Part shown: piece by piece, positions 29,875-34,297 of the stretch
Numbering within the stretch: the stretch's first letter is position 1
Layout: the number at the start of each line of letters is the position of its first letter
Source: Prochlorococcus sp. AG-347-L20
GTDB lineage: Bacteria; Cyanobacteriota; Cyanobacteriia; PCC-6307; Cyanobiaceae
Assembly (NCBI GenBank): GCA_003281225.1
Contig: QCCP01000001.1
Location: forward strand, 124,001 to 188,000
Direction of reading: 5' to 3'
DNA length: 64,000 bases
Translations under genes and position numbers: made by a program
Notes under the pieces: generated by a model
Databases searched by the model: none
What the model was told of the DNA's origin: nothing
Seen by the model: the letters and a program-made list of their open reading frames with translations, nothing else

Positions 29875-30393
29875 ATGCTATTGTCTTTTAATGCTAAACA
29901 GAAACTCAAGCTTTCTGTAACACGTAATAAAGAATATCTTTCTAAATATCTTTTGGAAGAAGAAAGAGTTGTTGGAGCAATGCTTGACTCCAAAAAATTA
30001 GTACCTGAAGGAATAGGTAGATACAAGTATACAGTAACAAGTTTTAAGGTTTTTCAATTAGATATTAATCCTGTTGTCTTAATTGCGGTAGAAAATAAAG
30101 ATGGAATTTTAAAAATGAGTGCTCTTGAAAGTACATTGGATGGTTTGGGGATGATAGATGATTTTAATCTTATTTTGAAAGCAAATTTGGAAGCAACTGA
30201 TACTGGTTTAGAAGGTGAGGCGCTTCTTGGGGTATCTGTAAGCCAACCCCCTTTACTAAAGCTGGTACCAAGGAAAATTTTGGAATCTACTGGCCATTCG
30301 GTATTAAATGGGATTCTGTTGGGTATAAAGTCAAGGGTTCAACAGCAACTTGTAAAAGATTTTTTAGATTGGTGTGAATTAAATAAGATTTGA
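29875..30393 (+). CDS. DUF1997-family protein
   Basis: The 172-residue protein fits DUF1997, a family of cyanobacteria and plastids. It has an alpha-beta START-like layout with [30 protein letters not shown] at the front and the conserved [32 protein letters not shown] near the end. Function is not established. The 3' end overlaps the convergent rnhB gene by 15 bp. Confidence 0.75.
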
Positions 30394-30996
30394 TTTCTTT
30401 AAAAAACTTTTCCTATGAAGTTTAGTTATTCCATTTTTTTTGATTAATGAAAGATGTTCTCTGGTTCCATAACCTTTATTTTTAAATATCAAGTATCCTG
30501 AATATTTTTTTTCTAACCTTTCCATTAGATTATCGCGAGAAACTTTGGCAACTATGCTTGCTGAAGCTATTGAGATAAACTTTGAGTCTCCAGATATTAT
30601 GTTTTCCTGAATTCCGTCCCATGGCCTTAATAATAAAGGACCATCAATTATTAATTCAGATGGCTTTTCTTTTAATTTTTTTAAAGCTCTGATCATTGAA
30701 AGTTCTGTCGCAACCCTGATACCTAACTTATCTATTTCTCTGGCCGAAGATTGCCCAATTCCATAATCTGAAGAGAGTAATAAAATTTTTTGTAAAAAGA
30801 ATTTTCTTTTTTTGGGAGTTAGTTTTTTACTATCTGTTACTCCAAATTGTTTTAAGATAAATCTATTTTTTTCAGTTAATACTACAGCTGCTGAAAAAAC
30901 TGGACCAAAAATTGCTCCTCTTCCAACTTCATCTATTCCAACTTCGAATACTTTATTCAATGCTTGCTGAAGATCTTCTTCTTTTTTTTCTTGCAT
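30379..30996 (-). CDS. rnhB: Ribonuclease HII
   Basis: RNase HII (205 aa) removes ribonucleotides from DNA and cuts RNA-DNA hybrids. The catalytic DEDD set is seen as [15 protein letters not shown] (Asp, Glu), then ELIIDGPLL (Asp) and [17 protein letters not shown] (Asp). The ATG lies 44 bp inside the upstream rne frame, so the two genes overlap and are likely translationally coupled. The other end overlaps the DUF1997 gene by 15 bp. Confidence 0.94.
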
Positions 30997-32773
30997 TGTT
31001 TAGCTCATCTGTAAGTTCAATTTCATCTTTTTTATCCTTAAATACAACTTCATTATTTTCATTGGTTTTATTTGTTGATTTATTTTTAGAATTTACATTT
31101 GCTTCAATTTTAATTTGAATCTTTTCTTCTCCCGATTTTGAGACTTTTTTAATTTGTTTTGTTTTTGTTTTTTTATTATCTAAGGGTTTTTCCATTTCTT
31201 TATTACTTTCTTTTAAACGCACAAAATTGTTGCTGGTGAGATATTCTTTACCCAACTTTATAAGTGGATTAATACCTAATTGACTGAAAACAATTTTTTC
31301 TTCATTTGTAAGATCAACTGTTATTATATTTTTTTCTTTTGAATTTGATTGGTTAAAATTATCATTATCATTTTCTTTTTTATTAGAAAAATTCTCTTTA
31401 CTTAGGTCTTTGGAGTTAATTAATTCCTTGTCAATTATTTTTTCCTGCTCATCAGTTGATTGAGAAGTATCTTTATCTAAAGATTTTAGGTTGTTTGATT
31501 GATTAGATTTACTTTCAACATTTTTAATTTTTAAGTTAGAAATTTCGTGATTTAATATATTCTCTACATGTCCGGTACCATCGCATGTAGAACATTTTTT
31601 ACCGAATAATTCATATATATTTTGACCTTGTCTTTTTCTGGTTAACTCTACTAAGCCTAATTCAGTAAGCTGAGCTATTTGAGGCCTGGCAGAATCATCT
31701 TTTATTGCTGAGGTAAAATGCTCAAGTAACTGAAATTGATCTCTTCTTGATTCCATATCGATAAAATCTATTACTATAACTCCACCAATATTTCTTAATT
31801 TCATTTGCCTTGAGATTTCAACTGCTGCTTCGCAGTTTGTCCACAAAACGGTTTGCCTTGAATTTGCGGATCTTGTAAATGATCCAGAGTTTACATCGAT
31901 TACTGTTAGAGCTTCAGTAGGTTCGATAATGATATAACCTCCCGAAGGAAGATCTACTCTAGGTTGGAGAGCTTTTTGAATTGTTTTCTTAATTTCATAC
32001 TTTTCGATAATATGTTGGTCTAAAATATTATCGTGAAATTCAATATCTATATCAGGTTCATAATTTTTTAAGAAATCTTTTGCCCTTACAACTGAAAATT
32101 TACTATCAATAATTATGCTCTTAGTTGATTCTTTAATATAATCTCTTAAGATTTTAAGAGAGAAATCATCATCTCTTTTTATTAAATTTGGTGGATTAGA
32201 AGCTTCAGAAACTCTTAGTACATTTTCCCATTGCTGAATTAATTGTTCTAAATCTTCAATTAGAAGTTCTTCTTTTATTTTTTCAGCCTCTGTTCTAAAT
32301 AACAAGCCTGTGCTTGGTGGTTTTATTAAAACACCAAGAGCTTTCAAACGGCTTCGTTCTGTTTCTGTATTTATTTTTCTTGAAATATTCACTCCTTGGC
32401 CATATGGCTGTAAGATCAAGTATTTCCCTGGGATTGAAATACTTCCGGTTAGTCTGGGACCTTTAGATCCCGTGGGTTCCTTTATCACCTGTACTAGAAC
32501 TCTTTGTTTTGGTTCTAATAATTCAGTTATTCCAAATGTCCCTTTTTTAAGTCTTAGTGGACCTAAATCTGAAACATGGATGAATCCATTTTTCTCACTT
32601 TCACCAATATTTATAAAAGCGGCATCAATACCAGGGAGAACATTTTCAACTGTTCCTAAAAAAATATCGCCAATTTGATATTGACCTTGTGCGACGATTA
32701 ATTCATCAACTCGATCATCTGTGAGTAGTGCTGCTATTCGAGCCTGCTCAGCGATGATAATTTGCTGAGGCAT
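30953..32773 (-). CDS. rne: Ribonuclease E/G
   Basis: RNase E (606 aa) is the main mRNA-decay and rRNA-processing endonuclease. The S1 domain ([25 protein letters not shown]) comes first. The DNase I-like part contains VIDVNSG and IDFIDM with the two metal-binding Asp residues. The zinc-link CSTCDGTGH joins dimers. The C-terminal ~200 residues are low-complexity, Lys/Asn/Ser-rich. The end [13 protein letters not shown] matches the basic nonapeptide (RRRRRRSSA in Anabaena) reported to dock PNPase. The leader is structured. Confidence 0.95.
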
Positions 32774-32798
32774 ATAATTGATTCTGAATGATTTGGAT

Positions 32799-32940
32799 TT
32801 TGAAAATCGTCTAAATTAATAAATTAAATTTTGTCATTTAATGAAGTAATTTTTTAGCTATAAATATTTACTTTTTAAAAATTAATAAAGTTAAAAGTGA
32901 TTGAATTCTGATATTTATAAAGCTTTAAACGATTTTCAAA
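32799..32940 (-). promoter_or_regulatory. Long inverted repeat in the rne 5' leader
   Basis: Arms 32924-32940 and 32799-32815 are 17 nt each. In rne mRNA sense they read UUUGAAAAUCGUUUAAA and UUUAGACGAUUUUCAAA and pair over all 17 positions with one G-U. On the plus strand the same position is an A-C mismatch, so pairing is complete only in the rne transcript. The loop is 108 nt, and the 3' arm ends 25 nt before the AUG. RNase E is known to autoregulate through its leader in other bacteria. Confidence 0.65.
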
Positions 32941-33070
32941 CTAATTGAAATTGATTTTCACAGCTATGATTATCTCTTAAATTAACCATAACTAAAATAA
33001 TTTTAACATCTAATCACCACTAAAGCACGTTAATACATTATTCTAATATTGGTGAATTTTTTTATCTAAA

Positions 33071-34297
33071 GTGGTTCAAGTAAACGAAAATTATTTAAAA
33101 CTCAAAGCAGGCTATTTATTCCCAGAAATTGCTAAAAGGGTAAAAATATATTCTCAATCAAATAAGAGTGCTGAAATTATTAAGCTTGGCATAGGAGATG
33201 TTACAGAACCATTACCTAGAGCATGCATAGAGGCTATGGGTAGAGCTTTAGATGAAATGGGAACAAAAGATGGTTTTAGAGGTTATGGACCAGAACAAGG
33301 TTATTCTTGGCTAAGGGAAAAAATATCTGAGCATGATTTTATTTCGAGAGATTGTCAAATTTCGCCTGAAGAAATCTTTGTTTCAGATGGTTCTAAATGC
33401 GATAGTAGCAATATTTTAGATATTCTTGGCAAAGATAATTCAATTGCTGTAACAGATCCTGTTTACCCAGTTTATGTAGATAGTAATGTTATGACAGGCA
33501 GAACTGGTGATTCTCTTGAAAATGGTACTTATCAAGGATTGACATATCTTGCAATAAACGAGGGGAATAACTTTCTGCCAGAACTACCTGAAAAAAAAGT
33601 TGATATTTTATATCTTTGTTTTCCTAATAATCCGACTGGAGCAACGATTAATAAAGCAGATTTGAAAAAGTGGGTTGATTATGCTCTTCAGAACAATTCC
33701 CTAATACTTTTTGATGCCGCTTATGAAGCATTTATTCAAGATAATGACATTCCACATTCAATATATGAGATTGAGGGAGCAAAGGATTGTGCTATTGAAT
33801 TTAGATCTTTTTCAAAAAATGCAGGATTCACTGGAGTTAGATGTGCTTTTACAGTAATACCTAAAAATCTCAAAGGTTTGAGCTCAAAAAATGAGGAAAT
33901 AGAGTTATGGCCTCTTTGGAATAGGCGACAATCTACAAAGTTCAATGGAGTAAGTTATGTGGTTCAGAAAGGAGCAGAGGCTGTTTATTCTCTTGAAGGG
34001 AAGAAACAGGTGAGAGGTTTAATTGATTTTTATATGGAAAATGCAAAAATAATGAAAAATAAACTTCAGAATTCAGGATATAAAGTTTATGGAGGGGACA
34101 ATGCTCCTTATATTTGGATGAAAGTTCCAGATCAAATGACATCTTGGGACTTTTTTGATTTCCTTCTCCAAAAAGTTAGTGTAGTGGGAACACCTGGGAG
34201 CGGATTTGGATTAGCAGGAGAGGGTTATTTTCGCTTGTCAGCATTTAACTCACGATCAAACGTCCTTGATGCAATGGAAAGAATAATTAATATATAA
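33071..34297 (+). CDS. dapL: LL-diaminopimelate aminotransferase
   Basis: DapL (408 aa) converts tetrahydrodipicolinate directly to LL-diaminopimelate, the lysine and cell-wall route of cyanobacteria and plants. It is a PLP fold-I enzyme. [43 protein letters not shown] and the PLP lysine in [15 protein letters not shown] are all present. The start is GTG. It is divergent from rne across 297 bp, and clpS follows after 31 bp. Confidence 0.96.

Follow-up and report, generated by a model that had tools for sequence, protein, structure and literature searches.

RNase E autoregulation in E. coli is a textbook example of mRNA self-control, and the RNA elements of RNase E autoregulation in cyanobacteria are poorly known. 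The locus described here, from the most abundant photosynthetic organism, raises the question of whether an inverted repeat in the leader of rne forms a helix in the rne mRNA, and what such a helix would be used for. The window, which is the whole stretch of 64,000 nucleotides that was analysed, belongs to the genome of a high-light Prochlorococcus. In it, rne and the LL-diaminopimelate aminotransferase gene (dapL) are divergent, with a 297-nt intergenic region of 81% AT between them. The repeat, whose helix is called P1, lies in this region among the following features:

30953..32773, minus strand: rne, RNase E, 606 aa (Pfam RNase_E_G, E=3e-91), the gene downstream of the leader
32774..32798, minus strand: conserved unpaired stretch of 25 nt from P1 to the AUG (translation start region)
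32799..32815, minus strand: 3′ arm of P1, UUUAGACGAUUUUCAAA, ending 25 nt upstream of the AUG
32816..32923, minus strand: AU-rich domain inside P1, 108 nt
32924..32940, minus strand: 5′ arm of P1, UUUGAAAAUCGUUUAAA in the rne mRNA, at -167 to -151 relative to the AUG
32945..32950, minus strand: UUUCAA upstream element, with possible local pairing to the 5′ arm (hairpin H0, which excludes P1)
33071-34297, plus strand: dapL

The top NCBIfam match of the rne product is RnaseECyano (E=3.5e-203), which stays under the full-length cut-off of that family. On the same strand, the gene rnhB (RNase HII, 30379-30996) and the end of rne share 44 nt. In two other genomes, L218 (G060) and G109, the rne frame is apparently split or shortened, possibly through sequencing error.

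The initial annotation had described an inverted repeat of 17 nt with a single G-U, a spacer of 108 nt and 25 nt remaining to the AUG, and all of this, coordinates included, was recovered exactly. The arms at 32799-32815 and 32924-32940 are 94% complementary over 17 nt each, and in the rne sense they form 16 Watson-Crick pairs and one U-G pair, the position being A-C on the opposite strand. When the intergenic region was shuffled with its dinucleotides preserved, 6 of 400 shuffles contained a repeat of 17 nt whose arms had no more than one mismatch and lay 10-160 nt apart, and one of 400 contained full pairing over 17 nt with G-U allowed. Judged by shuffles alone, the repeat is only moderately rare.

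A helix in the mRNA requires that both arms are transcribed, which can be approached through the related strain MED4. Its rne promoter has start sites at -220 (TSS1) and -200 (TSS2) from the start codon, and a third one, TSS3, is phage-induced and coincides with the G of the start codon itself (PMC9692554). The sequence taken to be MED4 (L019) has its rne start at 1,440,558, in agreement with the positions published there. The 5′ arm starts at -165 in MED4 and at -167 in the window, and the promoter region is alignable and highly conserved, which gives the following expected positions:

~32995, minus strand: 5′ end of the normal rne mRNA from TSS1, aligned from MED4
~32976, minus strand: 5′ end of the normal rne mRNA from TSS2, aligned from MED4
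32771, minus strand: counterpart of MED4 TSS3 (PMC9692554), on the G of the start codon, position taken over from MED4, giving a transcript without P1

Since the MED4 start sites lie upstream of the 5′ arm, P1 falls within the transcribed rne leader, and by analogy both arms should be present in the normal rne mRNA and missing from the phage-induced transcript. A main start site downstream of 32924, which would have left the 5′ arm untranscribed, is not what was found, provided that the MED4 start sites hold. The alternative rne transcript of phage infection, mentioned in the initial annotation, does exist, and this leader is missing from it (PMC9692554).

Conservation of the arms was followed in an alignment of 179 unique high-light leaders, for which 80 named relatives were used together with 266 genomes of the genus. 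The inferred changes per site amount to 4.65 in the 5′ arm and 6.6 in the 3′ arm, against 10.9 upstream, 11.9 in the enclosed region and 10.0 in the stretch before the AUG, so that both arms evolve about two times more slowly than the remaining leader. The contrast is larger when only changes common to at least three sequences are counted (0.29 and 0.76 in the arms vs 1.6-2.0). Loss of the arms among relatives, which would have spoken against the proposal, did not occur; they are kept over about 180 relatives. P1 pairs are maintained in most leaders, the outer ten positions in about 90% or more, and among the leaders of the MED4 clade it is the outer 11 pairs that are retained, the inner part being altered.

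Folding calculations point in the same direction. P1 is the main helix in the consensus fold of 130 non-redundant leaders, with a value of -24.3 compared to -3.1 ± 1.9 for shuffled columns and -17.0 for the antisense. In ensemble folding at 25 °C, eight or more long-range pairs are predicted for 79% of the leaders, vs 3% with a shuffled 3′ region, and the minimum-energy structure includes P1 for both the window leader (z -2.29) and the MED4 leader (z -1.38). The energy of long-range folding in single sequences is weakly informative, with a mean z of -1.5 in both high-light clades, -1.2 in the low-light clade LLI and about 0 elsewhere. Many relatives have an additional hairpin, P2 (AUAGCA..UGCUAU), within the domain enclosed by P1, which the window genome does not form. 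In 50 diverged high-light leaders, P1 and P2 together are 87.6% paired, vs 39-53% when the arms are slid, and eight of their pairs are changed on both sides, vs 4.2 in shuffles (3/500), although plain shuffles ignore relatedness. The long-range stem in the rne leader is thus conserved, transcribed from the mapped start sites of MED4 and predicted to fold in the RNA.

The strand on which selection acts is less readily told. The initial annotation read the single G-U pair as pointing to selection that acts on the RNA of rne, a view that the 179 leaders do not bear out. In the rne sense, 52 of 168 changes keep pairing and 116 break it, for an expected 25%, and in the opposite sense 49 of 138 keep it and 89 break it, for an expected 28%, where the expectations come from the substitution spectrum of the leader outside the arms; both senses are near expectation. 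Strand bias of substitutions was therefore rejected as proof of RNA selection, there being no preference for the rne strand in this set. Within the high-light clades, P1 as a whole does not reach significance in a tree-aware simulation (p = 0.07-0.18), with one pair (G-C to A-U) standing out at p ~0.01. The high-light clades alone do not allow a stem in the RNA to be told apart from sites conserved in the DNA. The case for RNA rests instead on the other Prochlorococcus clades, from which the decisive support comes.

Two further groups of leaders provide this comparison, namely the genus g71 with 35 sequences, which we read as clade LLI from genome size and sequence, and the genus g26 with 12 sequences. 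The LLI leaders have a long-range stem of different letters, in which UUAACGUC/GGCGUUAA is followed by a symmetric internal loop and then by CUUAAAGGGA/UCUCUUUAAG. This stem is 96.5% paired, vs 28-53% when slid, and its covariation is significant in a tree-aware test (p 0.0025 to 0.01). The g26 stem, likewise long-range, sets CUAAG and UUUUGGAAG against CUUCCAAAA and CUUAG. The high-light core, UUUGAAAGUCG/CGAUUUUCAAA, can be aligned with both stems, and over the resulting 11-pair core, in 42 distinct sequences of the three groups, 87.7% of the cells are paired. Changes on both sides occur in 51 cells, vs 17.3 ± 3.1 in shuffles, and the covariation score is 0.397, vs 0.06-0.14 when slid. Arms pair well within their own clade (0.86-0.93) and generally worse when a 5′ arm is combined with the 3′ arm of another clade (0.59-0.79). 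Because pairing guided the choice of register between clades, and the homology of the arms is deduced from their likeness and place, the result leans toward structure; as judged from these alignments, compensation across clades is strong but not independent support for the helix. Covariation over Prochlorococcus rne leaders, the check suggested in the initial annotation, was significant in LLI and, with the register chosen in this way, across clades, and was not significant inside the high-light clades. A strong or clear P1 was not found in two deep high-light clades (L206, L215-L218, L220-L222), and Synechococcus-like leaders show other hairpins in place of such a long-range stem.

We consider the P1 helix itself well supported, and several explanations compete for what the repeat is. 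It is very improbable that it is a chance repeat in AT-rich sequence inherited by common descent: the 6 of 400 shuffles with an equally good repeat, and the many intergenic regions on view, speak for chance, but both arms are slow-evolving relative to their flanks in the 179 leaders, and long-range stems are present in other clades too. Matches of 28 nt elsewhere, in MED4 and G008, were set aside, the one in MED4 lying inside a 76-aa open frame (WILNDLDFD) and being a chance likeness. An unlikely, if somewhat more probable, explanation treats the arms as a pair of inverted sites in the DNA, bound by a regulatory protein within the promoter region common to rne and dapL, with the RNA pairing incidental. 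The letters of the arms are conserved more than their pairing and there is no strand bias, many relatives have the dyads TTTCAAATAGTTTGAAA and GATTTTCAAAATC overlapping the arms, and the first of these dyads, when read as a hairpin, is without covariation, all of which fits DNA sites. Nevertheless, the motif is not clearly enriched genome-wide, the two arms being the only exact copies in G056 and G059, and the low-light clades retain pairing despite changed letters. A protein-binding DNA repeat is accordingly disfavoured, its possible form being that of a site for a single-target regulator. An operator of a regulon, searched for as a genome-wide DNA motif, was rejected as not clearly enriched over a reversed control pattern.

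Slightly more doubtful again is a switch in which the 5′ arm pairs by turns with the upstream UUUCAA, giving the local hairpin H0, and with the distant 3′ arm, giving P1. UUUCAA is highly conserved and the six H0 pairs form in 87-97% of the leaders; however, no H0 pair is changed on both sides, the pairing is no better than shuffled, and H0 offers six or seven pairs against the seventeen of P1, which is the predicted fold. H0 was dropped as part of a switch, its letters being conserved and covariation absent. In many relatives, the UUUCAA at 32945-32950 also builds a DNA dyad, TTTCAAA-TAG-TTTGAAA. The main live rival, to which we give a minor but real chance, accepts P1 as a true helix and assigns it to mRNA stability or translation start, with the 5′ part shielded and the start region open, and not to RNase E sensing. 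The structural evidence for P1 fits this too, as does the fact that P1 stops 25 nt short of the AUG, so that the conserved start region stays unpaired. On the other side, rne leaders are known feedback sites in E. coli and Synechocystis, and RNase E feedback via the rne 5′ UTR has been reported for MED4 alike (PMC9692554), for which reason feedback is favoured for rne here.

On balance, we lean toward P1 being the long-range closing helix of a structured rne leader that occurs in several Prochlorococcus lineages, most likely used in RNase E feedback. In the 5′ leader of the rne mRNA, P1 would close off a domain some 110 nt long and leave the last 25 nt before the AUG single-stranded, and the closed domain may offer RNase E AU-rich single-stranded RNA or a recognition surface. 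Cleavage of the leader would then drop when RNase E is busy and climb when it is in excess, and P1 might contribute by presenting the cleavage site, by binding RNase E or by protecting the 5′ part. P1 is probably the scaffold of this feedback. Conservation, predicted pairing and covariation between lineages come from the present analysis, and the MED4 start sites, the feedback via the 5′ UTR and the phage bypass from published work; the regulatory role of P1, as the sensor or scaffold itself, is what we infer. Given that the phage-induced transcript starts at the ATG, without the leader, it would escape leader-based control and thereby evade the feedback. P1 is a defined, mutable target that lies in the very segment removed by the phage-induced promoter, and it can serve in tests of both feedback and phage bypass. 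A broader and more tentative proposal is a family of structured rne leaders peculiar to Prochlorococcus, in which a long-range closing helix, with letters swapped by compensation between ecotypes, could be the RNase E sensor that cyanophages bypass by shifting the start of rne transcription to the ATG.

Among known rne leader systems, the enterobacterial rne5 acts through local hairpins, whereas the main element of the Prochlorococcus leader is a long-range helix, and rne-II is located in rne leaders, as its name says. Like the P1 leader, rne5 (RF00040) is a structured rne 5′ UTR, and in E. coli it acts in cis in the feedback of RNase E; its covariance model gave no match on the window, and none at E<=1 in six picocyanobacterial genomes (G000, MED4 and four relatives), with a positive E. 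coli control. The rne-II motif (RF01756) of the Pseudomonadales, which comes from comparative genomics (PMC2864571), is a conserved RNA structure as the P1 leader is, but from another phylum; the absence of matches to its model at E<=1 is a weak test, as the control set also gave none above the cut-off. For Synechocystis 6803, whose rne 5′ UTR has an AU-rich cleavage region, RNase E is reported to cut a U-rich element in its own leader, leading to feedback (PMC10989929). This leader is cyanobacterial like the P1 leader, but it is longer and its feedback element is a local U-rich site; a long-range helix is not described in the passages on it. An intrinsic terminator, as for the attenuation reported in Synechocystis, was not found in the leader. 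The rne 5′ UTR of MED4 and its bypass by phage (Stazic 2016; Lambrecht 2022) concern the same gene and the same leader. The 2022 MED4 text makes no mention of leader secondary structure (PMC9692554), and no description of the P1 stem was found in the open literature outside Stazic et al. 2016, which may already show a structure of the MED4 leader.

Several minor features accompany these leaders. Low-light leaders (e.g., L178, L315, L188) contain conserved GCAG..CUGC hairpins, and those of several genera have a GAGCC..GGCUC hairpin near the AUG, which suggests that these rne leaders are richly structured beyond P1. In the leaders of g26, L305 and L307, P1 is surrounded by an outermost long-range pairing, GGGUUAG / CUAACUC, at about -235 and -65. 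Near the position of MED4 TSS2, many high-light leaders carry TCATAGCTATGA (rne sense), a 12-bp DNA palindrome situated in a block that is among the best conserved of the leader. The window has an imperfect copy of this palindrome and MED4 has lost part of it; it may be a site through which rne or dapL is regulated.
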